Positions 2,718-37,645 of a stretch of 50,389 nucleotides of DNA are shown one piece after another. Position 1 is the first letter of the stretch. Every line of letters starts with the position of its first letter. A program made the position numbers and the translations under genes. Below the pieces are notes generated by a model that was not told the origin of the DNA, did not search any database, and saw only the letters and a program-made list of their open reading frames with translations. Location of the stretch: IMG/VR virus record IMGVR_UViG_3300009419_000027, positions 1 to 50,389 of that record. One strand, written 5' to 3'. This DNA comes from a virus.

Positions 2718-3074
2718 ATGACATTTCCAAGTACTTATAATTTTAGTTATTACCGTGGTGACACTGCTCAATTTGTTGCCCGTCCAAAAAATGCAAATGA
2801 CGGATCTTCTTTTGAACTAACAGGATATAGTTCTATTTTTACAATTGCAACAGCAAGAGGTTCAGGGGCTACAAGATATTCTACTGCACAGGGAATTACT
2901 GCTGTAGTTGATACTGCAAACGATCTAGTAACGTGTACCATTACACCAACAGGTGGAAGATTGCTTGCTCAAGGTTCATATGTTTATGATGTTCAAATTG
3001 ATAATGGAACTCAAATCTATACTCTTTTGACTGGTACGATTTCTGTAACAGATGACATTACTGGTGCCGCTTAA
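2718..3074 (+). CDS. tail protein with BppU-N-like beta domain (copy 2)
   Basis: This 118-residue beta-rich protein has the motif FSYYRGDTAQFVARP near its N-terminus, paralogous to 1444 and 6892. The whole length is one Ig-like domain, and the C-terminal half ends in a predicted strand-rich GTISVTDDITGAA. It is probably a baseplate or fibre adaptor. ATG at 2718 is preferred to the TTG at 2715 because AGGAGG is optimally spaced (6 bases). It overlaps the next gene as TAATG, which couples the two. Confidence 0.65.
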   Translation: MTFPSTYNFSYYRGDTAQFVARPKNANDGSSFELTGYSSIFTIATARGSGATRYSTAQGITAVVDTANDLVTCTITPTGGRLLAQGSYVYDVQIDNGTQIYTLLTGTISVTDDITGAA

Positions 3075-3637
3075 TGCCTGATGTTCTATTGAGTAATGAT
3101 GATATTACAGTTCTTGGCCCACCAGAAATTGTTGAAGTCTTAGTTGACATTGGTCCACAAGGTGATCGTGGAAGCCAGATATTTATTGGTGTAGGAGATC
3201 CAAATTCTGTGGAAATTGGACAAACAATTAGATTAAATGATTTGTATATTAATACATCTCCAGGAGCAAACTATGGATATCTATATCAGTATGTTTCTGA
3301 GCCTGGAGGAAATGTTTGGATTGAGGTTTTAAAAGTAAATCCAACTCTATATTCAAAGCGCCATTCTGCAACTTTTACTAGTGGCGAGGCAAGCATAACT
3401 ATACCAATCTCAAATATTGTTACAGTTTCTGGAACACCCCTAACAGCAAATAATTTTGCAGTTCAATATAGTATTGTTAGCACAAACCCCATAGCATCAT
3501 CCATAGAGATTCCAACTCTTACGGGATCGGGGACCAATCTTGTTGTTAATTTTAATGCCGTTAAGTCGGTTAATGGAACTTGGTCAAATTTGACTGGAGA
3601 GGTAACCATACATCTATTTATATCAATAGTCTTGTGA
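3074..3637 (+). CDS. minor tail / fibre protein
   Basis: This 187-residue protein starts in the TAATG overlap with the previous gene. The N-terminal 80 residues (DIGPQGDRGSQIFIGVGD, then LNDLYIN) resemble a linker found in phage minor tail proteins. It contains one Gly-X-Y-like hint (GPQGDRG), like a vestige of the collagen region in 1948. The C-terminal 100 residues are Ser/Thr/Ile-rich beta structure ending in hydrophobic HLFISIVL. It is probably a receptor-binding or fibre component working with the adaptor at 2718. The exact role is not recognised. Confidence 0.6.
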   Translation: MPDVLLSNDDITVLGPPEIVEVLVDIGPQGDRGSQIFIGVGDPNSVEIGQTIRLNDLYINTSPGANYGYLYQYVSEPGGNVWIEVLKVNPTLYSKRHSATFTSGEASITIPISNIVTVSGTPLTANNFAVQYSIVSTNPIASSIEIPTLTGSGTNLVVNFNAVKSVNGTWSNLTGEVTIHLFISIVL

Positions 3638-13946: not shown

Positions 13947-16900
13947 ATGTCTAACCCGTCAAATTTATATGCAGAGAAGATTTTCTCAGAACACCCACTG
14001 GTTTTGTGGGCACTCGATGATCAGGCTGACTATGTAAGTTTAATAACAGAAGCACAAAGAAATATATCATTACTTTGGAATGAGACTGGTGGAGCAGCAA
14101 CTCTAGTATCAACACCATCAGATGCACCTTTTCAAGATAGTTATACATCATCTATTTCTGCAAATGTTCCAACGATTGATGGAGAAGAAGTAATTGCATG
14201 GAGTCCAGACCTTAAAAATTTTAGTGATCTAGACGTAGACCTTGGAACTATTTCTGTAGGCACATACTTTTATCTAAATAGTGTGTATGTTGATTCAATT
14301 TCAATAGGCATAGAATATACAGATACAACTTCTTCGCAACTTGTTAGAAAGTTTGAGACATTCTTAAATCCAGTATATGCAAACTGGTCTTTGATATCTG
14401 CTACTTTTGATGTTCCTGATGAAAATGCAAATTTTAGAATATTTATTAAATTTAGCACATTGACAGGTGGTGCTTCTTCAAGTGATTATCAAATTTTATT
14501 TAATGGAATTACCGCTGGCCAATGGTCTGAAGAATTTAACGCAACATCTTTAGGCGTTAGCAGCCAACTTATTCCTTCAAGCATAGCCTTAACACAAACA
14601 CATGGCTTAGAGGCAAAAGCATATGGTCTATCTGATAGATCTGGATATTACCTAGTAAATAAAAATAGTTTAGTTGCAAGAAACACAACAATTCCATTAG
14701 TTTATGGAGCGTCTGGTGTTACAAAACTAAGGCCCAACCAAAATAACTTGCCATCATTAATTATTCCAGGACAAGGATTTTTAAATGAAGCAGGTAGATA
14801 TAAAGATTACACTGTAGAGTTTTGGGCAAGAATTAATTCTGATTCTGCTACCCCTTCAAGAATATTTGGACCTATTTCATCTACAGATGGGCTATATGTC
14901 GAAAGCGGATTCTTAACATTAAAAATTGGAAATACCTTTAGATCTCATTTTGTTGGAGAATGGTATAGACCAATGCTAATTGATATTAGAGTGTTAAAAA
15001 ATTCTGCAACAGTTTTATTAAATGGTGAGCAAGTTATTAGTATAAGTTTTAGTACAAAGGACCTAATTCTGCCATCTGTTTTAAATGAAAATGGCAAGTC
15101 TCAAGATTGGCTTGGCTTTTATTCTACAGAAAATGTTACACCAATTGAGATCGACTGTGTTGCAATATATCATTATCAAGTACCAATTACAGTTGCAAAA
15201 AGAAGATGGGTTTATGGACAAGGAGTTCTTTCTCCAGAAGGAATTAACTCTTCCTATGGAGGATCTTCTGCATTTATTGATTACCCATTTGCAGACTATA
15301 CAGCAAACTACTCTTATCCAGATTTTGCAGAATGGCAACAAGGAACTTTTGACAATCTAGTAACAAATCAAAACTCGCTGGAGTTACCAATTTATTCTTT
15401 ACCAGAAATCTTTACCAACTCAAAAACACTTCAAAGTCTATATGATGACAACCTTGCTATTCAGTCTGAGGAAAATAAGTTTATAACATTAAAGCCCAAT
15501 GATTCCTGGGCTAATCAAGGAGCATATATAAATTTTCCAAGATTTGATATTTTAAATGATCAGGTTCATGCACTATATGGTATCTTTAAAGCATCAGAAA
15601 ATACTTCAGTTCAAACACTGTTTAAAATATATAATAGTCGTACAGGTAACTTTTTTACAGTTAAAAAAAATGGTGCAAAAATAGATTATTCTTTAAAGTT
15701 TAATGGAATAGAAGAAGCAATTTATTCAACTCCCAATTTTTCAATAAACACATTGATTTCTGTTGGCATAAAATTTGAAGACCTAAATAATACTTTTGGT
15801 GGAAATGTTGCTGCATTTTTTGGAAATTTAAATGGTTTAAAAATGTATGTTGGTGGCGATGAAACAGCAAGCAATACATTTTTTGGAAAAATTTACTCAG
15901 TTGGAGTTTGCTCTAGTTTAAACTTAGTAACTATTGAAGATCACTTTAATATAAACGGTATTGTCAAAATACAAGATGCAGCAGAACTTCTAGCACATAC
16001 TGCAAGTTATACACTTTTGCCAACAATAGCGTATGGTAAATTTTTATTAGATATTGGTGTTTCCTCTTACTGGGAAGATTACCTACCACTTTCTTATTTT
16101 GCACAATATGTAAAAAATGATGTTGGAAATGAATACTACGATTTAGACTTTTTACAATTTAACATTGGTTATCCAGCACCATCAAAACTATTAGAAAAAG
16201 AGTCGGTAACTGAGGATTGGACATATGCAAACCTTTATAGTGAATATCTAAGTCCAATACAAAGACCATACTCAGAACTAGATAATTTCCTATATTCTGG
16301 ATTTAATGATTATGAAGATCTAGCACAAAAATCAAATAAATACTATGAATATGATACAGCAGACTCTGAAATTAAAAGTTATATAACTTTTCAATATATT
16401 CAAGAAGGAGCAAATGCACTTCCAAGTTATTTCACAACAACAGAGAAAGCAAAAGAAGGCAGAGTTGTCGACATTGCTGAATATCCTCAGTGGCAAAATA
16501 CAAAATTTGAAGTTGTAGATGGAACAATAATTTATCCAATAAAGACAGTTGATTTTAATAAGTTAGGAATTGTTTTTCATCTAGAGTTTACCTCAAGAAA
16601 TACATTGACAAAGCCAATATCTTTAAGAAGGTTAAGTTTTACATCTCAAGCACTCAATAACAATTCTTTTAATCCAGTGGGAACTAGATTTGGAATAGAC
16701 ATGTTTCCTTATAAAAAATCGGGAATATATTACGACTATAAGTCTAAAAATCCATTTAGTATTTATAAAGGAAGTACACCTTATCTATATATGACCAGGG
16801 ATTCTGGAATTGAAGTTCGTGGAGAGTTTAGTTCAACTGTTGATCGAGGAATAAACATTCCAATTAATAAGCAACTAGCAGATGCCTACCAAGTAAGCGC

Positions 16901-17534
16901 AGTACAACTGTGGTATAGATATGATCTTGACAACTTTACAATTACTCCAACACAGTTCTTTGAAATAAAATATAAGGGTAATTTAATAAAATTTTATACT
17001 ATGGCCATAGACAGTGCTGGTAAAAGAGCAAGGGTTTATGCTATTGATGAAAATACAGGAGAATTATTTAATGGTCTGTCATATTATGTAAATGGAAATA
17101 TTGTTAGAGAGCCAGTATTAACTACCAAAGAATGGTCTGTTCTTGGAATAGGGTTTGCCAATACATTAGATTTTAATAACTTTATTGGTGGCATTAATCT
17201 TAATGGTCCAGGAGTATTTAATAATATATCTTATTATCAAGCAAATAGTCTGCAGCAAATACAAAAGCAACTTACAAGGCCTTGGGCAGACGTAAAGGAT
17301 GACGATGGGACAGATCTTTATTGGCAGTATTGGGATGAAAATTTTAGTTGGGGAGGAATGCTGGTACTGTCATCTTCCAGCCTTTATGGTGTCAACCCAT
17401 CAGATGTTTATAAAACATATATTGGAACCAACAAGATAATCGTTGATGATGGGGACGGAATGACGTTTCTTCCAGATAAAATTAGGATATATCAAGACTT
17501 AGAGTGGTCTAGTTTTATAGTTACACCTATCTAA
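13947..17534 (+). CDS. giant tail protein with LamG/concanavalin-like domains
   Basis: This 1195-residue protein starts NLYAEKIFSEHPLVLWALDD, a beginning seen in large phage minor tail proteins. At least three jelly-roll (LamG/ConA-like) segments can be read: residues about 288-375 (YTVEFWARI through VLLNGEQVIS), about 540-640 (IFKASENTSVQTLFKIYNS through GLKMYVGG), and about 985-1095 (VQLWYRY through FNNFIGGINL). Such domains bind carbohydrates or decorate the tail. It has its own promoter. It lies upstream of the portal and far from the tail-tip block at 37645-45439, which is unusual placement. It is probably a surface tail appendage. No enzymatic motif is visible. Confidence 0.7.
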   Translation: MSNPSNLYAEKIFSEHPLVLWALDDQADYVSLITEAQRNISLLWNETGGAATLVSTPSDAPFQDSYTSSISANVPTIDGEEVIAWSPDLKNFSDLDVDLGTISVGTYFYLNSVYVDSISIGIEYTDTTSSQLVRKFETFLNPVYANWSLISATFDVPDENANFRIFIKFSTLTGGASSSDYQILFNGITAGQWSEEFNATSLGVSSQLIPSSIALTQTHGLEAKAYGLSDRSGYYLVNKNSLVARNTTIPLVYGASGVTKLRPNQNNLPSLIIPGQGFLNEAGRYKDYTVEFWARINSDSATPSRIFGPISSTDGLYVESGFLTLKIGNTFRSHFVGEWYRPMLIDIRVLKNSATVLLNGEQVISISFSTKDLILPSVLNENGKSQDWLGFYSTENVTPIEIDCVAIYHYQVPITVAKRRWVYGQGVLSPEGINSSYGGSSAFIDYPFADYTANYSYPDFAEWQQGTFDNLVTNQNSLELPIYSLPEIFTNSKTLQSLYDDNLAIQSEENKFITLKPNDSWANQGAYINFPRFDILNDQVHALYGIFKASENTSVQTLFKIYNSRTGNFFTVKKNGAKIDYSLKFNGIEEAIYSTPNFSINTLISVGIKFEDLNNTFGGNVAAFFGNLNGLKMYVGGDETASNTFFGKIYSVGVCSSLNLVTIEDHFNINGIVKIQDAAELLAHTASYTLLPTIAYGKFLLDIGVSSYWEDYLPLSYFAQYVKNDVGNEYYDLDFLQFNIGYPAPSKLLEKESVTEDWTYANLYSEYLSPIQRPYSELDNFLYSGFNDYEDLAQKSNKYYEYDTADSEIKSYITFQYIQEGANALPSYFTTTEKAKEGRVVDIAEYPQWQNTKFEVVDGTIIYPIKTVDFNKLGIVFHLEFTSRNTLTKPISLRRLSFTSQALNNNSFNPVGTRFGIDMFPYKKSGIYYDYKSKNPFSIYKGSTPYLYMTRDSGIEVRGEFSSTVDRGINIPINKQLADAYQVSAVQLWYRYDLDNFTITPTQFFEIKYKGNLIKFYTMAIDSAGKRARVYAIDENTGELFNGLSYYVNGNIVREPVLTTKEWSVLGIGFANTLDFNNFIGGINLNGPGVFNNISYYQANSLQQIQKQLTRPWADVKDDDGTDLYWQYWDENFSWGGMLVLSSSSLYGVNPSDVYKTYIGTNKIIVDDGDGMTFLPDKIRIYQDLEWSSFIVTPI

Positions 17535-27298: not shown

Positions 27299-30200
27299 AT
27301 GAGTGATGTTAATGCCAATATTGGCGTACATATTGATACGTCGTCCGCATTAACAGAACTCAAAAATCTACAACGTCAACTTGCAAATTTTCATGCATCA
27401 ATAGCAAAAAGTAGTGCCGCTGCAGCCGCAGCACAAAAAGGATTGCAAACCAATCTTTTAAATTCTATCAATGCTACGGGGCAGTTTACTGCCACGATGG
27501 GTGTTGTTAGATCGTCAACGGAGTCATTTACTCACGCATTAGAGACTAATAAACTTTCAATGCGTGAGTATTTCCGTTATGCTGGCGGAGCATCAAAAAC
27601 TTTTGGAAGACTATTTAGACAAGAGTTTGACACAATTGGCAAGGTAGCAGAAGAACGTGTCAAGAAGATGCAGACTCAATATATTAAAATGGGTCGTGAT
27701 GCTAGCGGTGCTATAAAGGCAATGGCTATTACGCCACAAACCTTGAATATGAATGACTACGCTACCAAAACAGCATTAGCAGCACAAAAGCAGGCAATCT
27801 TTAATCAGGTAGTTAGACAAGGATCAACTAGCCTTTTGAATTTTGGTAAGAATACACAGTGGGCTGGCCGCCAACTGATGGTTGGTTTTACAATTCCACT
27901 TGCCTACTTTGGCACAACCGCATCAAAAGTATTTATGGATCTCGAAGCACAGGCTATTAAATTTAAGCGTGTTTATGGAGATATGTTCACAACTGCTGAT
28001 GAAACAAATAAGGCTTTAGCAGAAGTTGAAAGATTAGCAGAAAGTTTTACTAAGTATGGAGTTGCAGTAAGTAAGACTATGGAAATGGCAGCCTCCGCTG
28101 CTGCAATGGGTAAAACAGGAGCAGACCTAACAGCCCAAGTATCCGAAGCAACTAGACTTGCAGTTCTTGGTGGAGTAGAGCAAGAGCAGGCGCTTGAAAC
28201 CACAATTTCTCTTACAAATGCATTTGGTATAGCAGCAGAAGATCTTGCAAAGAAAATTAACTTTCTTAACTCTGTTGAAAACCAAACCGTTGTATCTATT
28301 GAAGATTTAACAATTGCAATTCCAAAGGCTGGACCAGTTGTTCAGCAACTTGGTGGAGATGTAGAAGACTTAGCATTCTTCCTTACAGCAATGAAGGAAG
28401 GCGGAATTAATGCTTCTGAAGGCGCTAACGCACTTAAATCTGGACTTGCATCTTTAATTAATCCATCTAAAAAAGCAAGCGCAATGTTTGCAGATCTTGG
28501 TATTAATATTAAGGGAATTGTAGAGTCAAATCAAGGAGATATTACTGGAACAGTAATTGCTTTTTCAAAAGCACTAGATACTCTTGATCCACTTAATCGT
28601 GCAAGAGCAATTGAGCAACTATTTGGTAAGTTCCAATTTTCACGTCTTTCTACACTATTTCAAAATGTAACAAAAGATGGAACACAAGCAAGTAAGGTAC
28701 TAAGACTTGCAGGAGCCTCAGTAGAAGAACTTGCAATCTTATCTGAACGAGAATTAAAAACGGTAGAGAATGCTGTTGGAGTACAGTTTAAGTCAGCAGT
28801 AGAAGAACTTAAACTAGCAATTGCTCCAATAGGAAAAACATTTTTGCAGGCTGTAACTCCAATAGTAAAGGTTGTTGGAGATCTACTAGAAAAATTTAAT
28901 GGTTTGGGAGATGGTACAAAGAAGTTTATAGTAATTGCATCTACCCTTGTTGGTATTATTGGACCAACTCTATTGATGACTTTTGGTTTAGTTGCCAATG
29001 GTGTTGCAAATATTATTAAACTATTCCTCGCTCTTCGTGGAGGATTTTTACGATTAGGTGGAAATAGCAAGATTCTTGCAGAACAAACTAATTACCTAAA
29101 CGCAGAGCAGTTAGAGTCTGCAACTATTGCAGCATCTCTTAATCAGGCACACACAAGGCTTACGCAATCATTTACAGCAGAAACCTCAGCAGTAAGAGCA
29201 CTAAGAGCAGCATATATTGAAGCAACTGTTGCAGCAGCAAATTTTGCTAGAGCAAATCCAGGAATGATGGTACCAGGTGGAAAAGTTCCTAAGAAGTTTG
29301 CAAGAGGAGCAACATATGTTCCAGGAACTGGAAACAAAGATACAGTTCCATCAATGCTTACTCCTGGAGAAGCAGTAATCCCTGCAGGTGTTGCACAGGA
29401 TCCTAGATACCAACCAATTATTGATGCAATGGTTAATGGAAATCTTCAAGGGTTTGAAGAAGGAACTGTTAATGTAGGCTCAAAGTCATCTAAGACAAAG
29501 AGTCAAAGAACTGCCAGAGATCTTGAAAAAGCAATTGCTGAACTTAGATCCCAAGGAATTTCTGAAGAAAAGATTGTTGCGGCACTAGAAAGAAATGTTG
29601 AACGTGGCCGACCAATGAATGCCACACAACTAAAGAGAAGGCTCTCTATTGGTAGAGGTTCTTCATCTGGTTCATCTGCTCCATCATCAATAAGAACACT
29701 TGCAAAACAGTCCCAATCTGGATTTGTTCAAGAAACAGAAGCAGTCAAGAAAGCATTAAAGGAACAAGGAGTAGTATTAACTCCTGCACAAGAAAAGAAT
29801 TTGTTTAATGTTCAAGCATCTCATATTGAAGAAACACGAGTTGGTGGAGTAAAAGAATGGAAGGCTAATAACCTTGTTGCTGATTTAGGATATATAAATA
29901 ACTATATAAATACTGTAAAGGGTAAACTTGGAACAGACCTACTTAAAATGTCTGATGCTAGATTATCGGAACTTGGTATTGATAGAAGAGAACTTCAAAA
30001 ACTTCAGGCTGGAACGCATCCAACTACAGCAGAAGCAGCAAAAACATTAAGAGCAATTGCTCAATATGATTCAGTTCGTAACCCAGCGTCTTACCAAGCA
30101 AAGGCGGTAGTTGCTGGATTAGAGCATAGAGCAAAAACTGGTTTTTATGCACAACCAATGAAAACATTGGCAGAAACCCAACCAGTTTCAAGCAGGGCAG

Positions 30201-33200
30201 AGAGAGCAGTTAAGTCTAGATTAGACTTAGTAGAACAAGAAAAAAATGCAAAAGCAGGTAATGACTCTCAGCAAATAATGAAGCAAATAGATAGAGACAT
30301 AAGAAGAACTGCATTAGGAAAACAAGCACCAACAGATTTTGGAACCCAGATATCTCCAACTACTGGCCATAGTTTTCCAGTTAAAGGTTTGGGTGGTGTT
30401 TACCAAAAGCCAGATGGAACTATGGTATTTGTTAAACCTGTTATGGATGCTAAAGCGGCCCTGGCTGAACAGAGAGCAACAATTATTGCAAGAGATGTGC
30501 ATGGACTAGACGCACCTAGACAAGAAGTTAGAACAATGCTTGACCCAACAGATCCAGCAGGTAAGAGAAAACTTATTGTATTAGAGTCTCCTTTTGATCC
30601 TAGATTTGATCCAAGCAAGATGACTGGAAAATTTACAAAAGATGAATACTTCAGACAACTCGTTGCTGCAAACCTTCGTGGAGATAAAGACCTAGGCAGA
30701 GGAAATCTTTCTGGCAATGTGCTTGCAGATGTTGGAACAGCAGGAGTTTTTGCAAAGGCTTCAGGAAAAAGAGATTTTGCTACAACTATGCCGTCAATGG
30801 CGGAGCAAGCAAGAGTTAATCTACTTGGCGTAAAAGGTGGAGCAAAGAGGTTCTTTGCTGAATCAACACTTGACATTCCTAGAGGAATGACTGCAGATGA
30901 ATACCATAGCAGAATGATAAAAGAGATTGATAGGGTTTTGCCAAAACTAAAAGAAACTCTTTCAAGACTTGACCTAACTCCTGCAGAAAGAACTGTTTAT
31001 TCTGCAATGGTAGCAAGACTTGAAGAAGGAAGGAAAGTTAACTGGAGAGAATTCCACAAGATGCATTCTTCTGTTCTTGTAACTAAAAAAGAAGCGCTAC
31101 AAGATCAAAAAACTGGTGACATAACACCAATTAAGGGTAAGCCAAAACCTAGAAAGGCTGTCTCAAGTTCTGGCAAATCATCAGATAGTGTAATCACTCA
31201 AGTTCCTCCAGGGAAAAGAGTTGTTCAGAAGCCAAAAGGATTTGTTAGTTCTCGTCTTGGAGGCAAGTTTACACTTCCAGGTTACGCAGATGCCCCTCCT
31301 GCAACTGGCACAACAGTTAAAGATATTTCTCAATCACAAAGATTATCAAGAGCACAACTTCTTGCTGCTACAGAAAGAATAAGTTTAAATCAAGCCAAAA
31401 AGAGAATTGCGGCAGAAGCAAGACTTACCACTTCTATGCAAGAAAGCACTGAAGCACAAAAAACAGCAAAAGAAAAAATAACAAACTTTAGTAACAAAGC
31501 AGGACTTGGCATTGGTGCAATGAGTGGTTTAACAATTGCAGCATCTTTTGCTGGAGGAAAACTTGGAGAAATGGCTCAAACAATTATGCCATTTGTTTTT
31601 GGTATTCAAGGTCTAGTTATGTTACTACCATTGCTAGCCAATCCATGGGTAGCAGCAGTTGCAGCAATTGCCGTTGTAGGTGGGGTAATGTGGAAACTGG
31701 CTAGGGATGTTGAGAATGCTAGAAAAGAAGGAGTAAATCTTGCTAAGGCAATGAATATGACTTCTGAAAAACTACAAGGTCTTTCTAAAATAACTGGAAC
31801 AGTTAGTGCTACAGAAGAAGCAGATAGACAAAGGCAAACTGCTCTAACTGGAGAAAGTGCAGTTCAAAGAAAGTTTGGTCAGAATATTCTTGGTAGCGAT
31901 TTTGGTAAAGGTCTTTTGGCTGATATTGAAAAGCAAGCAAGTTCTGGGCAAGGAATACAAGAAATTGGCAGAAATGTATCTAACAGTCTTGCATATGCAA
32001 TTGTTCAAGGAGTAATAACAACAGATCAAGCAAAGAGCATTGCCTCTGCACTTGGAGAAGAATTAAAAAATTATGAAATACCAGCAATTATTAGTGGTAG
32101 GTTAGTTACACTTCTTGGTCCTAATGGAGAAAACCTAACAAAAGATCCTCTACAGGTTACTCTTTCAATTCAAGAAGAGTCAATGACGAGACAGGCCGAC
32201 TTCTTTAAAACTGCACTTGAACAGTCAATTAGCACTACAACTTTTACTAATGTTGGTCAAGTTATTGGCGGATCAATAGTTACAGCAATAGGATCAGCAA
32301 TAGCAGTATCAACAGGATTTACTGGTGTTGGAGCAATAGGTGGCGGAGCCATCGCCGCTGCTGGAGGAACAATAGTCGGAAAGGGACTATCAGATCAAAA
32401 TCAACGTAAAGAAGTAAATGCAAATCTTGGTGCAGCAGCACTGCAACTTGGTTTAGAACAAGTTGTAATGAACAATGGATTAGTTGATTCACTAAATAAA
32501 CAATATGATATTAAAGTTAAAATGGCAAAAACAGATGCTGAAATTAAAATAATTGAAGATGAAAGACAAAAAGCACTTGATGACCTTAATGCTGCAAATG
32601 CTGAAGCCTTAAATATTCTTATTGCACAAAAGGATTCTTTTGGTCCAGAAATATTTACTAAGGGTATAAATGCAGCAATAGACTCACTTTATAAAGATGG
32701 ACCTATGAAAGTTTTTGCTGATGAAGCAAAGAAAGATTTAGAAAATATTGGAAATGCAGACTTCAAGGCAATGCTACAGGTTCAGTTTGCAAGTGGTGCA
32801 ATTGATCCTGTAACAGTAATGAAACTTGCAAATAATCAAAACCTACAAAGCAAATTTTCTCTTTTAGTTGAAACAAAGGGTAGTGAAGACGCTAACCTAA
32901 TTATGCAAACCTTGATGAAGGCTGGAGTAAACGATACAAATCTTCCAATCTTTATGGATATATTAAATAAAGATCCAAAGAATTTTGATAAAAATATGAA
33001 AGCCATTAATGTGCTTGCTAACATGCAACAAAAGTATGGAATCACTATTGATGTTAACGATGATGGTGCAACACAAGTTCAAGAGATTGTTGCTATAACA
33101 GAAAAACTTGCAGGAATTACTGGAGAAGAATTAACAAAAGAGGCTTTCTTAGATCTTGGCATTACGGGAGACCTCACAGGACCAGAGTTTGATGCATTGT

Positions 33201-36200
33201 GGAAAACTCTTGTTGGAACATCTAATACAATTAATAAATCAGTTGTAATTGATTTTGTTGCTTCAGGAGATGTTAATGTTGTAGACGCATACATGGCTGC
33301 TATGGGAATTACTGCTCCAAAGGGAAGACTCGGAGCAATGAAGAGAAATGCTCTTAAAGAGAAAGCGGCAGCCTGGAATGTTGGAAGGCAGGGTAAACTT
33401 GATGCAAATGGTAACCCTATTGATGACGGTAAAGACCTTGATACAAATAAAAATAGAAATACAACATTTGATAGCATTCTTCAAGACCTAAAAAATACAA
33501 GAGATGCAACTATTGATGCTATGGGTGGAGCCAAAGAACTTATGCGTATTCTTGGTGGCAAAAAAGATCTGCAATTGTTTAATGGACTAGATCAGCAGTT
33601 ATCCAAGTTAGGTGCTAACTCCGATTTTATTGATTTTGTTGGCGGACTGGAAAATGCTGTTAAAGAAAAAATTATTAAGATTAATAAGCAAGGTGTTGTT
33701 TCGTATGGTGAATTTGGTGCGGCTGCTAAAAAAGCATTTGATGAAAAACAACTTGGAGCATTTAGTTCTAAGTCAGCAATAGCAATAAAAGAACTACAGG
33801 GACAGCGTTCAGGATTTGTAGCACTAAAGTCCGCTGGAGTTGAGTCTGCTGATGCTGTAGAAATGCTTGCAGATGCAACTTTTATGGTTTCTCTTGCTGC
33901 TCAAAAAAATCCTGCAGAAGTTAAAAAGATGATTGATGAGTGGAAGGTAATGAAGAAAGAGTTAGACCTCACTACCGCTGCTACAAATCCACAACAATAT
34001 TTTAATAACCAGATGGCTATTGCAGAAAGACAGTTTAGTTTACAAGAAGCAATGGCAAGAAGAACTTATGAGCCACAGATTGCCGCTACAGAAGAATTAG
34101 TTAAAGCCAACAATGTTCTTATTGAACAAAATCAGCGCAAACTAGAAATGGATTCTAAGTATGGTAGCCGTCAAATTGATAGAATTAATTCTGAGATTGA
34201 TGGACTAAATAGACAACTTGCTACAGGAATAGATGCTACACTACAGCAACTTTCTGTTGAATCAAATAAACTTGCTGAAGATCAAACAACAATTGCCAAG
34301 ACAGTTGATGGCATTAATGAAAAATATGATTTGCAAGAAAAAGCACTTTCAAAAATATCAGATTTAAACCAAGAAATTATTGCTGAAAAGAAAACGCAGA
34401 TATCTCTTGCTGACGCATTAACTCAGGGAGATATTTCTGCAGCAGCACAGGCTGTTGAAGATGTACGATCAGCAGCAGCAGATAGAGCACAAAGACAAGC
34501 AGCCGATGCACTTACCGCTGCAAGAGAGTCTCAAATTGCAGGAGTAACTGGTTCACTAACTGGTATGACTGCAGCACAAATTACTGACAGACAGTATAAG
34601 ATTGACCGTCAAAATTATGCACTTGGAGTACAACGTGCTGAGGTAGAAGCGTTAATTGCTGCAAAGCAAGAAGAGATTTACAAGATTGATTTATTGCGTA
34701 AGCCAGTAATTGCAGAAATTACAAGACTTGAAGATGAAAATTATAGACTTAACACTGAAGTTATCAAACCACTAAAGGATAAGTTGGATGCTGAACTTAA
34801 GTTTATTGATTCACAAAGAACAAAGTGGTCCGATGCAGCACTTGCTATTGAAGGTGCTAATCTTAAGGTACAGGCATTCCAAGATAAACTTACAGCCGCA
34901 GATGGAACACTTGTGTCAATAAGCAAACTATGGGGCAGTATTACAGATAAAAATCTTAAAGTTACAATTTCAACTATTGAAGAAGTTATTAAACAACAGG
35001 CCTCATTTGTAAAAACTGGTACTGTTCAAACAAAGTCAGGTCCTGTAGATGTTGATTCTTCTGGAAGAGCAGCAGATGGTTCAATACCAATTGCAGTATC
35101 TAATCCAGATAAAAACGATACAACAACAACATATAACCAACAAAGAGAAGCGCAGATTAAAAAAGCAGCAGCAGACACTGCAGCATCTGTTGCTACAGCA
35201 GCAACCCTTAAAGCAGAAAAGATTGCTAACTACAGAGCAAACAATGCTTGGGCTCGTTCGATGCCTGATTCAGTTATCGCTGGTGTTCTTGGACTTGCTA
35301 AGGGTGGAGTAGTTCCTGATTCTTTTGCTGCTGGAGCATATGCCCAGGGTACAGATACAGTTCCTGCCATGCTTACTCCAGGGGAATATGTATTAAGAAG
35401 AGATGCAGTAAAGAAGTATGGGGTTGAAAATCTTGACGCAATGAATCTTGGCTACTATCAAGATGGTGGAGAAGTTTCTAGGTTTGCAACTCGGCCAAAA
35501 TTTGGAACTAAACCAAAAGAAGAAGGCAACTGGTTCCAACGCTATGTTAAAAACTTAACACAAAACCAAAAAGATGCAGCAAAATACCTACCATCATTTA
35601 TGTTATTAAATGGGAAGGCAGATGCGCTTGGGGCTGGAGCAATATTAAGAAAAATAGCAGGACAAGATGAAGCAGGAGATACTTTATCTGCTGCATTGTT
35701 CCCACTAAACTTCCTTGGAATGGGTAAGGTTGCAAAAGGTGGCATTAAAGCCTCAGCACCAATAGCAAAACAGTCTTCAGGTATTTTGTCAAAAGTTATT
35801 GCACAAACAAAAGGTATAGGATCTAAGATTGCTGCTCCATTCCAAGAACTTTTTGCACCTGCTGCAAATGAAAACTTTACTGCAAAAAAGGCTTTCCTAG
35901 AAGCACTTAAAACAGGTCAAGCAAGAACGACGCTAATTAAAGACACCAAGGCTATAAAACAATTAGAAGCAATAACAAAACCACTAATCTCAAAACTAGA
36001 CGAAGCAGGTTATGAACCCGCATTTCCAGGTTCAGATTCTTGGGTACGTAAAGGCACTGCAAATATGCCTTACACTGCCTATAACACGATTCAACAAGGT
36101 CACCCTCTTTACGATACCCTAGTAGAACTTGGTTTAGCACAACTTCGTGCAAGAACCCAAAAAGAAGGAAAAAATATAGCACACTATGCTTCTATTCTGG

Positions 36201-37645
36201 GAGCATTTGTAAAACAAAGCAAAGACAATATTATAGAAAAATTCCCTCAACTTGATAGATTAACTACAACAAGTAAACAAATACCAGGTCAGGTTTCTGA
36301 AAAAGCACTTAAGATTGGAGAATTACTTAAGCAGGGTGAGACAGGGATAAACGAAACATTTAGAGCAGTTCTAAATGGAGTGCCTGGATTCTATAAGACT
36401 GGACTAGATAACGATGAAGTAAAAAGAGAAATATTTGGTTCTTTGTTTGCTAGAAAAGCAAAATTAATTGCTCCAAAAAATATTCCAATTTTTAATACTT
36501 TAGACAGAGTTGCAAGTGGAGTATTTAGCCCAGATGTTGCAGCCCAAGGTGCAGCAACGTTAAAGTCTTTTGTTGGCCTTGATCCTTCTACTGGTACTCG
36601 TCAGTTATTTGATAAAACTGCAGATGCAGCACTTGCCACTTCAAGCGGATATAGATCTGCAATTATGGCTGCTTTTAGATTTGTTGATAGCCATGATGGA
36701 AATTTAACAATGAATCCCGAAACACTTGTTCCAGGACTCATAGACTTTGGAAGAGTTTTAGACTTTAGTCCATTTGCACCAAATGTAGATTCAATGGCAA
36801 GCGAAATGTCAAAACCATTATTTGATTCTGGAATGGGTAACTGGAAGGTGCCACAAATAACTTCAGGATTTTTCTCTGGGATTGATGCAGGAGTAGACTT
36901 TTTATCAACATTAAAGACAGCAGATATTAAAAAAATGCTAAAGGCTGCAGGATATAAAGGCAAAGAACTTAAAAAGCAAACAGATTTAATGCTAGAAAGT
37001 ATAAGAACTACAATTGACGCAGTACCAAGAGTTAAAGCAGATGCACAAATGAAACAAGACATGTGGCTTGGATCACGTCCAGATATGCCACCAATTCCAT
37101 CTGTGTCTGCTGGTATTATTCCAGACGCTATTTCAGTTCCTGCTGGCAAGGTATTAGAATTATTAAAAAATAATCCTACTTCAAAAGAAATAATGTCAAA
37201 AGCCTCTTTAACTAAAACAGTAGCAAAGGTTGCAGCAGGTGTTGGTTTATCTGGTCTTTCATTATCCTCAATGTCAGATGCTAAAAAGCCAGTTATCAAA
37301 CCTCCATCTGATCGACGTACTGGTGGTGTAGGTAATATGCTAGCACTAGCATCAGGTGGAATGGTTCCAAAATATTTTGCTAAAGGTGGATACTCTGTAG
37401 GAACGGACACTGTTCCAGCAATGCTAACTCCTGGAGAATTTGTTATTAATAAAAATGCTGCAGATGGTCTCGGAGTTAGAAATCTTAATAAACTCAATAG
37501 TGGAGAATCTTTGGGCAGTTCCGTGTATAATTATAGTGTAGGAATTAATGTTACAAACGCTAACGCAGATGCTGACGATATTGCAAGGGCAGTCATGGGA
37601 CAGATTAAATATATAGATTCACAAAGAATTAGAGGACAAAGATAA
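27299..37645 (+). CDS. tape measure protein with embedded kinase-like domains
   Basis: This 3448-residue protein sets tail length and is ejected ahead of DNA. Its N-terminal coil region and TP901-like central part hold hydrophobic stretches at about 542-578, 1402-1470 and 1652-1695, and long coiled coils at about 2275-2535. A repeated element, GTDTVPAMLTPGE(Y/F)V with a Gly-rich lead, occurs at about 678, 2684 and 3368. Two regions carry kinase-like signatures. The first has K1046, E1057, D1131, N1136 and D1144. The second, clearer one has K3033, E3044, DSHDGN (3130-3135) and IDFG (3148-3151). GAGGTGA precedes the ATG. It is read from the promoter at 26914. Confidence 0.9.
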   Translation: MSDVNANIGVHIDTSSALTELKNLQRQLANFHASIAKSSAAAAAAQKGLQTNLLNSINATGQFTATMGVVRSSTESFTHALETNKLSMREYFRYAGGASKTFGRLFRQEFDTIGKVAEERVKKMQTQYIKMGRDASGAIKAMAITPQTLNMNDYATKTALAAQKQAIFNQVVRQGSTSLLNFGKNTQWAGRQLMVGFTIPLAYFGTTASKVFMDLEAQAIKFKRVYGDMFTTADETNKALAEVERLAESFTKYGVAVSKTMEMAASAAAMGKTGADLTAQVSEATRLAVLGGVEQEQALETTISLTNAFGIAAEDLAKKINFLNSVENQTVVSIEDLTIAIPKAGPVVQQLGGDVEDLAFFLTAMKEGGINASEGANALKSGLASLINPSKKASAMFADLGINIKGIVESNQGDITGTVIAFSKALDTLDPLNRARAIEQLFGKFQFSRLSTLFQNVTKDGTQASKVLRLAGASVEELAILSERELKTVENAVGVQFKSAVEELKLAIAPIGKTFLQAVTPIVKVVGDLLEKFNGLGDGTKKFIVIASTLVGIIGPTLLMTFGLVANGVANIIKLFLALRGGFLRLGGNSKILAEQTNYLNAEQLESATIAASLNQAHTRLTQSFTAETSAVRALRAAYIEATVAAANFARANPGMMVPGGKVPKKFARGATYVPGTGNKDTVPSMLTPGEAVIPAGVAQDPRYQPIIDAMVNGNLQGFEEGTVNVGSKSSKTKSQRTARDLEKAIAELRSQGISEEKIVAALERNVERGRPMNATQLKRRLSIGRGSSSGSSAPSSIRTLAKQSQSGFVQETEAVKKALKEQGVVLTPAQEKNLFNVQASHIEETRVGGVKEWKANNLVADLGYINNYINTVKGKLGTDLLKMSDARLSELGIDRRELQKLQAGTHPTTAEAAKTLRAIAQYDSVRNPASYQAKAVVAGLEHRAKTGFYAQPMKTLAETQPVSSRAERAVKSRLDLVEQEKNAKAGNDSQQIMKQIDRDIRRTALGKQAPTDFGTQISPTTGHSFPVKGLGGVYQKPDGTMVFVKPVMDAKAALAEQRATIIARDVHGLDAPRQEVRTMLDPTDPAGKRKLIVLESPFDPRFDPSKMTGKFTKDEYFRQLVAANLRGDKDLGRGNLSGNVLADVGTAGVFAKASGKRDFATTMPSMAEQARVNLLGVKGGAKRFFAESTLDIPRGMTADEYHSRMIKEIDRVLPKLKETLSRLDLTPAERTVYSAMVARLEEGRKVNWREFHKMHSSVLVTKKEALQDQKTGDITPIKGKPKPRKAVSSSGKSSDSVITQVPPGKRVVQKPKGFVSSRLGGKFTLPGYADAPPATGTTVKDISQSQRLSRAQLLAATERISLNQAKKRIAAEARLTTSMQESTEAQKTAKEKITNFSNKAGLGIGAMSGLTIAASFAGGKLGEMAQTIMPFVFGIQGLVMLLPLLANPWVAAVAAIAVVGGVMWKLARDVENARKEGVNLAKAMNMTSEKLQGLSKITGTVSATEEADRQRQTALTGESAVQRKFGQNILGSDFGKGLLADIEKQASSGQGIQEIGRNVSNSLAYAIVQGVITTDQAKSIASALGEELKNYEIPAIISGRLVTLLGPNGENLTKDPLQVTLSIQEESMTRQADFFKTALEQSISTTTFTNVGQVIGGSIVTAIGSAIAVSTGFTGVGAIGGGAIAAAGGTIVGKGLSDQNQRKEVNANLGAAALQLGLEQVVMNNGLVDSLNKQYDIKVKMAKTDAEIKIIEDERQKALDDLNAANAEALNILIAQKDSFGPEIFTKGINAAIDSLYKDGPMKVFADEAKKDLENIGNADFKAMLQVQFASGAIDPVTVMKLANNQNLQSKFSLLVETKGSEDANLIMQTLMKAGVNDTNLPIFMDILNKDPKNFDKNMKAINVLANMQQKYGITIDVNDDGATQVQEIVAITEKLAGITGEELTKEAFLDLGITGDLTGPEFDALWKTLVGTSNTINKSVVIDFVASGDVNVVDAYMAAMGITAPKGRLGAMKRNALKEKAAAWNVGRQGKLDANGNPIDDGKDLDTNKNRNTTFDSILQDLKNTRDATIDAMGGAKELMRILGGKKDLQLFNGLDQQLSKLGANSDFIDFVGGLENAVKEKIIKINKQGVVSYGEFGAAAKKAFDEKQLGAFSSKSAIAIKELQGQRSGFVALKSAGVESADAVEMLADATFMVSLAAQKNPAEVKKMIDEWKVMKKELDLTTAATNPQQYFNNQMAIAERQFSLQEAMARRTYEPQIAATEELVKANNVLIEQNQRKLEMDSKYGSRQIDRINSEIDGLNRQLATGIDATLQQLSVESNKLAEDQTTIAKTVDGINEKYDLQEKALSKISDLNQEIIAEKKTQISLADALTQGDISAAAQAVEDVRSAAADRAQRQAADALTAARESQIAGVTGSLTGMTAAQITDRQYKIDRQNYALGVQRAEVEALIAAKQEEIYKIDLLRKPVIAEITRLEDENYRLNTEVIKPLKDKLDAELKFIDSQRTKWSDAALAIEGANLKVQAFQDKLTAADGTLVSISKLWGSITDKNLKVTISTIEEVIKQQASFVKTGTVQTKSGPVDVDSSGRAADGSIPIAVSNPDKNDTTTTYNQQREAQIKKAAADTAASVATAATLKAEKIANYRANNAWARSMPDSVIAGVLGLAKGGVVPDSFAAGAYAQGTDTVPAMLTPGEYVLRRDAVKKYGVENLDAMNLGYYQDGGEVSRFATRPKFGTKPKEEGNWFQRYVKNLTQNQKDAAKYLPSFMLLNGKADALGAGAILRKIAGQDEAGDTLSAALFPLNFLGMGKVAKGGIKASAPIAKQSSGILSKVIAQTKGIGSKIAAPFQELFAPAANENFTAKKAFLEALKTGQARTTLIKDTKAIKQLEAITKPLISKLDEAGYEPAFPGSDSWVRKGTANMPYTAYNTIQQGHPLYDTLVELGLAQLRARTQKEGKNIAHYASILGAFVKQSKDNIIEKFPQLDRLTTTSKQIPGQVSEKALKIGELLKQGETGINETFRAVLNGVPGFYKTGLDNDEVKREIFGSLFARKAKLIAPKNIPIFNTLDRVASGVFSPDVAAQGAATLKSFVGLDPSTGTRQLFDKTADAALATSSGYRSAIMAAFRFVDSHDGNLTMNPETLVPGLIDFGRVLDFSPFAPNVDSMASEMSKPLFDSGMGNWKVPQITSGFFSGIDAGVDFLSTLKTADIKKMLKAAGYKGKELKKQTDLMLESIRTTIDAVPRVKADAQMKQDMWLGSRPDMPPIPSVSAGIIPDAISVPAGKVLELLKNNPTSKEIMSKASLTKTVAKVAAGVGLSGLSLSSMSDAKKPVIKPPSDRRTGGVGNMLALASGGMVPKYFAKGGYSVGTDTVPAMLTPGEFVINKNAADGLGVRNLNKLNSGESLGSSVYNYSVGINVTNANADADDIARAVMGQIKYIDSQRIRGQR

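Follow-up and report, generated by a model that had tools for sequence, protein, structure and literature searches.

Optional kinase-like domains of a tape measure protein from an uncultured siphophage and their possible delivery into the host

The tape measure protein (TMP) encoded by the uncultured siphophage record IMGVR_UViG_3300009419_000027 (50,389 nucleotides, analysed at full length and called the window here) contains, close to its C-terminus, a domain that almost certainly has a kinase fold. It is named kC, and a second kinase-like domain, kN, lies in the N-terminal half of the same protein. Among the TMPs of related phages kC and kN are optional modules, present in some and absent from others. 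It is proposed, as the rather probable explanation, that kC, and probably also kN, is a kinase module delivered at infection to act on a component of the host. The catalytic signature of kC was the subject of an original prediction made from this DNA; kN, situated near residue 1100, and the modular pattern of presence and absence were not part of it. The gene and the elements of kC are as follows.

27299..37645, + strand: TMP gene (3448 residues), carrying kC and kN; TIGR01760, PF10145, PHROG
36254..37048, + strand: kC, atypical (PI3/4K-PRPK-HipA-like) kinase domain, residues about 2986-3250; alignment, AlphaFold, Foldseek
36395..36397, + strand: K3033 (in GFYK), predicted ATP-binding lysine of strand beta3
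36428..36430, + strand: E3044 (in VKREIFGSLFA), predicted helix C glutamate
36686..36703, + strand: DSHDGN, predicted catalytic loop (D3130, H3132, N3135)
36740..36751, + strand: IDFG, with the predicted metal-binding D3149

In the plus-strand reading frame, DSHDGN (D3130, nucleotide 36686) and IDFG lie where the original prediction had placed them, with D3149 at position +14 from N3135, and its numbering of K3033 and E3044 is correct as well; the 13 residues that it counted between N3135 and I3148 are in fact 12. The pattern D.H..N.{8,22}DFG appeared in none of 2000 shuffles of the window TMP, and 3.9 million residues of shuffled TMPs contained no match to the exact form D.H..N.{13}DFG. When IMG/VR was scanned for D-x-H-x-G-N-12-I-D-F-G, 58 stretches were returned; in 13 of them the motif falls within a large open reading frame (ORF) that encodes a domain homologous to the C-terminal region of the window TMP, the remaining ones being other phage proteins. 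Two more contigs with kC came from a profile-guided search. The kC alignment has 17 rows, namely the window and 16 copies on 15 contigs of uncultured phages, all 16 of them in TMP-type ORFs and 23-60% identical to the window. The conservation check suggested by the original prediction came out in its favour, and K3033, E3044, D3130, H3132, N3135 and D3149 are invariant in 17/17 sequences, and the glycine of DFG is kept in 16/17, with serine in its place in one row (L164, IDFS). Most of these homologues had been retrieved by the catalytic motif itself, and the scan of the DNA was redone with the helix C and following AP pattern only. This motif-blind scan recovered 15 contigs, all already known and every one with DxHxGN and the following Asp, and no kC copy without the catalytic residues was found in it. 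Conservation as an artefact of ascertainment, arising from motif-fetched homologues, was rejected since the same contigs returned with their catalytic residues kept. An antisense ORF of 298 residues (window 36601-37497, - strand) overlaps the kC region and probably only shadows the coding strand.

The AlphaFold2 model of kC, calculated from the 17-row alignment, has a pLDDT of 78 and a pTM of 0.77, with low confidence for the first 52 residues and the domain proper well predicted. Its topology is that of a kinase (model numbering): K3033 lies in strand 63-69 and E3044 in helix 73-88, helix 145-161 precedes the catalytic loop, D3149 follows strand 180-182, and helices 198-210, 220-237, 242-252 and 256-292 come after the DFG Asp. 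The fold search suggested by the original prediction also turned out in its favour, the best PDB matches being PRPK, PI3K, PI4K, CtkA and HipA. In Foldseek, with a probability of about 1.0 in each case, kC matched human PRPK (E 7.3e-8), Vps34 (4e-5), CtkA (7e-5), PI4KIIalpha (1.3e-4) and HipA (1e-3), and also PI3K gamma/delta/alpha and PI4KIIIbeta; 44 PDB matches were obtained at E<=0.001, and all among those listed are kinases or kinase-like proteins. The domain is best described, judging by its model, as a divergent kinase fold of the PI3/4K-PRPK-HipA type, outside the curated families, and phosphotransfer activity is likely.

The second domain, kN, is defined by a 25-row alignment, an AlphaFold model and Foldseek.

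30314..31003, + strand: kN, second kinase-like domain, residues about 1006-1235
30434..30436, + strand: K1046, predicted ATP lysine
30467..30469, + strand: E1057, predicted helix C glutamate
30689..30706, + strand: DLGRGN, predicted catalytic loop (D1131, N1136)
30728..30736, + strand: DVG, DFG equivalent (D1144, G1146)

Its motifs are GGVY.K....VFVK, AEQRA, RGDKDLGRGN and LADVG, and K1046, E1057, D1131, N1136, D1144 and G1146 are invariant in 25/25 sequences; in relatives L071 and L042, DLHxGN stands in place of DLGRGN. The model shows kinase topology (pLDDT 86, pTM 0.82), and the top Foldseek matches listed are almost all kinases, CtkA and HipA included (best E 4e-4). Both domains thus have the beta3 lysine and helix C glutamate of protein-kinase-like folds (K3033/E3044 in kC, K1046/E1057 in kN), followed in order by the catalytic Asp, the Asn and the DFG-type Asp (D3130, N3135 and D3149; D1131, N1136 and D1144). 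A two-lobed kinase fold is predicted for both, with strong structural matches for kC and a confident model with weaker matches for kN. The assignment of kN is less certain than that of kC because a single match passes E 0.001 and the TM-scores are low; like kC, it is probably a phosphotransferase of atypical kinase fold. In a profile-profile comparison of kC with kN, the Lys, the Glu and the AP fell on matching positions, at a low probability of 3.7%, and common descent of the two is therefore not claimed.

Several results weigh against the proposed explanation. The TM-scores are modest for kC (about 0.4-0.57 for the better matches) and about 0.3 for kN. Pfam, PHROGs, NCBIfam and PDB gave no kinase match when searched with the single sequence, and the kC homologues reached at best E 0.02 for ABC1 (6 members) and E 0.24 for PI3_PI4_kinase (1 member) in Pfam, under the curated cut-offs; as the gathering cut-offs of PF00454 (PI3_PI4_kinase) and PF03109 (ABC1) were not reached, kC is assigned to neither family. 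Exact kC peptides identified no close relatives in IMG/VR and GTDB genomes, the profile-guided kC search found no relative in the GTDB genome collection, and tblastn of kC, kN and a third kinase-like domain described below found none in cultured phages. The lack of a kinase match in the single-sequence searches could be taken to mean that the resemblance arose by chance within a very long protein. However, the shuffling controls, the residue conservation, the modelled fold and the fold search are concordant, and this explanation is already refuted. An explanation in terms of a pseudokinase or structural spacer, in which binding or tail architecture, and not catalysis, would be the reason for keeping the fold, could be supported by the great divergence of the sequences and by the IDFS of L164. 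It is nevertheless improbable, as the phosphotransfer residues are all invariant at a mean identity to the query residue of 42% over the kC core, and the joint retention of K, E, D, N and D in two separate domains is unexpected for a spacer or a binding fold. Weak matches to the bacterial proteasome activator (0.02-0.05), and of the helical tails to M protein, were discounted as coiled-coil or helix similarity.

The optional character of the domains became apparent when the TMPs of relatives were compared with the window TMP by BLAST.

35453..37336, + strand: kC cassette, residues 2719-3346, missing from L009; BLAST of TMPs
37337..37642, + strand: conserved TMP C-terminus, residues 3347-3448; BLAST of TMPs
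29339..29371, + strand: LTPGE linker copy 1, residues 681-691
35354..35386, + strand: second copy of the LTPGE linker (residues 2686-2696), bordering the kC cassette on its 5' side
37406..37438, + strand: third copy of the LTPGE linker (residues 3370-3380), bordering the kC cassette on its 3' side

The TMP of L007 matches residues 1-962, 1236-2716 and 3345-3448 of the window TMP and is without kN and kC; that of L009 aligns to 967-2718 and 3347-3448, with nothing between, and is without kC only; L005 is also without kC. The C-terminal residues 3347-3448 are 80-87% identical in L005, L009 and L085, even where the cassette is absent, and the non-core block of the window TMP (residues 2761-3317) falls within the cassette. 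In the window, the LTPGE copies at 2686 and 3370 flank the kC cassette, and L009 has a single copy in the corresponding region; modules may be exchanged through recombination at these repeats. Among 54 distinct TMPs sampled by the N-terminal domain alone, kN was found in 19 and kC in none, and kC is thus the rarer module. Complete TMPs without kC or kN measure 2385-2659 residues (n=31) and those with them 2111-4573 residues (n=32; Mann-Whitney p 1.6e-9, for a set in which the kC-bearing TMPs were sampled via the motif and relatedness of the sequences was not corrected); the tight length of the former indicates that kC and kN are dispensable for the ruler. The 4557-residue TMP of L172:2771-16441 has the shuffled domain order kC-kN-kC.

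This pattern has to be considered when asking where the kinases work. One possibility is that their site of action is the cell that produces the phage, or the virion under assembly, where they might for example phosphorylate tail or chaperone proteins, and that delivery is incidental. TMP synthesis takes place late in infection, in a cell with ample ATP, and a full-length kinase would fold before entering the tail, as is generally known of tail assembly. However, close relatives whose aligned N-terminal TMP segments are 75-85% identical to the window lack one or both domains, which are hence not required for assembly, and presence/absence with shuffling resembles host-directed cargo more than a morphogenesis factor. 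An assembly role is therefore considered unlikely, although it is the least unlikely of the alternatives.

Other domains were observed in related phage proteins. A third kinase-like type (GHGDMHPGN ... AFDWG) is located near the TMP C-terminus at L093:14461-15285 and also in L096, L098 and L101; for L093, Pfam gives ABC1 at 0.0016 and APH at 0.005, below cut-off. An OmpA-family domain, which possibly binds peptidoglycan, lies within the TMPs L093:13549-17517 and L094:14078-18088 (Pfam E 4e-16 and 6e-17). The C-terminal parts of the L002, L093 and L094 TMPs contain F(Y)HGG...FxTxxxxxAxxY segments that look ADP-ribosyltransferase-like by eye, with no Pfam support. Outside TMPs, HGDxHxGN...IDFG motifs occur in many proteins of viral contigs, often of about 500 residues and some of 600-1700, at loci that include L105, L106, L117, L124 and L127.

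The identification of the 3448-residue ORF as a TMP is based on matches to TIGR01760 (7e-31), PF10145 (5e-24) and PHROG tape measure families (to 1e-101), and on its position: a minor tail protein gene follows, and the location matches that of the TMP gene in Streptomyces phages Bmoc and Wakanda. The portal, protease, capsid and TMP genes of the window are phage-like. The nearest cultured phages are Stanwilliamsviridae of Streptomyces (46% identity for the portal, about 30% for the TMP N-terminus), which points to a probably actinobacterial host. A protein of 1195 residues (window 13947-17534), without a PHROG match, adjoins the ribonucleotide reductase and portal genes. Within the TMP, a Kyte-Doolittle scan located the main hydrophobic stretch, with kN before and kC after it.

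31571..31705, + strand: main hydrophobic (membrane-type) stretch, residues 1425-1469

It is proposed that the TMP, once loaded into the tail, is expelled upon infection, that its C-terminal part with kC would reach the cell envelope or cytoplasm before the DNA, and that the delivered kinase would there act on a host protein, or else on a lipid or small molecule, and thereby aid take-over or blunt defence. In phage JBD30, three TMP copies leave before the DNA, and in T5 the TMP C-terminal domain is expelled (PMC11445458); the TMP C-terminus of siphophages is situated in the baseplate (PMC11445458, PMC5099701). Since kC stands just before the conserved C-terminus and after membrane-type stretches, it would be one of the earliest parts to exit. 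These precedents, together with the TMP-fused polymerase of phage P23-45, are the reason why injected kinase cargo acting on host components is preferred, and delivery as a host-acting effector is the most plausible interpretation of the TMP location of kC. What argues against it is that the tail tube may be too narrow for a folded kinase, so that unfolded transit or a location in the baseplate cavity would be needed. The original prediction spoke of a new effector route by which a kinase-like enzyme enters the host. The kinase-like domain in the TMP stands and its entry is plausible, but the word new has to be qualified in view of the TMP-fused RNA polymerase (PMC10770324) and of injected kinases (PMC5512222).

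The target could also be sought at the envelope, where the kinases would function during DNA entry on lipid headgroups or cell-wall precursors and not on cytoplasmic proteins. Lipid kinases are found among PI3/4K-like folds, PI3K and PI4K are among the top kC matches, and the TMP has membrane-type stretches, with the OmpA domain in some relatives. On the other hand, there is little ATP outside the membrane, the bacterial members of this fold class, HipA and CtkA, are protein kinases, and no lipid-binding element was identified in this analysis; an envelope-level function is thus given only a small chance of being correct.

kC and kN are apparently part of a broader modular pattern in TMPs. We tentatively suggest, as a wider reading that may or may not hold, that in a group of uncultured siphophages, probably of actinobacteria, the TMPs serve as modular launchers of effectors. 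Each would consist of a ruler of about 2.4-2.6 thousand residues with exchangeable enzyme modules added to it, at least three kinase-like types being among these modules and duplicated LTPGE linkers bounding them in the window; the modules would enter the host before the DNA, in a manner resembling the toxin modules of polymorphic toxins. Of TMPs that do more than set tail length and help to form the DNA channel, the P23-45 polymerase is the one clear example found. If TMPs of environmental phages do carry optional, catalytically intact kinases, tails would serve to deliver proteins, with swappable cargo, and modification of the host could begin before DNA entry. The residues, the domain limits and the natural cargo-free relatives make the claim of kinase cargo directly testable.

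Kinases in injected multidomain phage proteins are already known, as is one TMP-fused enzyme of another kind; no mention of a kinase in a TMP was found in the open-access literature, of which coverage was incomplete. PI3/PI4 kinase, PRPK/Bud32, HipA and CtkA share with kC the order of the lobes, the beta3 Lys, the helix C Glu, a D-x-H-x-x-N-type loop and the DFG Asp, but identity is 8-17% and kC is embedded in a tail ruler instead of free-standing. Some of the best kC matches among viral models (BFVD) are phage proteins whose names denote a PI3/PI4-kinase domain; structurally similar domains (prob 1.00) are present in A0A6J5MJB0, HSTV-2 L7TJZ0, proteins of Gordonia phages GodonK and Sixama and the ADP-ribosyltransferase of Mycobacterium phage Onyinye. 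These kinase-like phage proteins are 13-16% identical to kC, and none is a TMP by name, several being uncharacterised. The TMPs of the Stanwilliamsviridae Bmoc and Wakanda have about 2100 residues and no match to the kN or kC profile. Polyvalent proteins have several domains and are presumed to be injected together with the DNA of the phage, and they include kinases and ADP-ribosyltransferases (PMC5512222). Their kinase group is said to be without the C-terminal subdomain, in contrast to kC, which is modelled with several helices after DFG, and the term tape measure appears nowhere in the text of that paper (PMC5512222). A parallel in design is gp96 of Thermus phage P23-45, in which an RNA polymerase and the TMP are fused and which is present in virions and active in vitro (PMC10770324). 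As with kC and kN, an enzyme resides inside a giant TMP, with a proposed role at DNA entry (PMC10770324); the gp96 polymerase is N-terminal and serves phage transcription, whereas kC and kN are internal or near the C-terminus, optional and shuffled.
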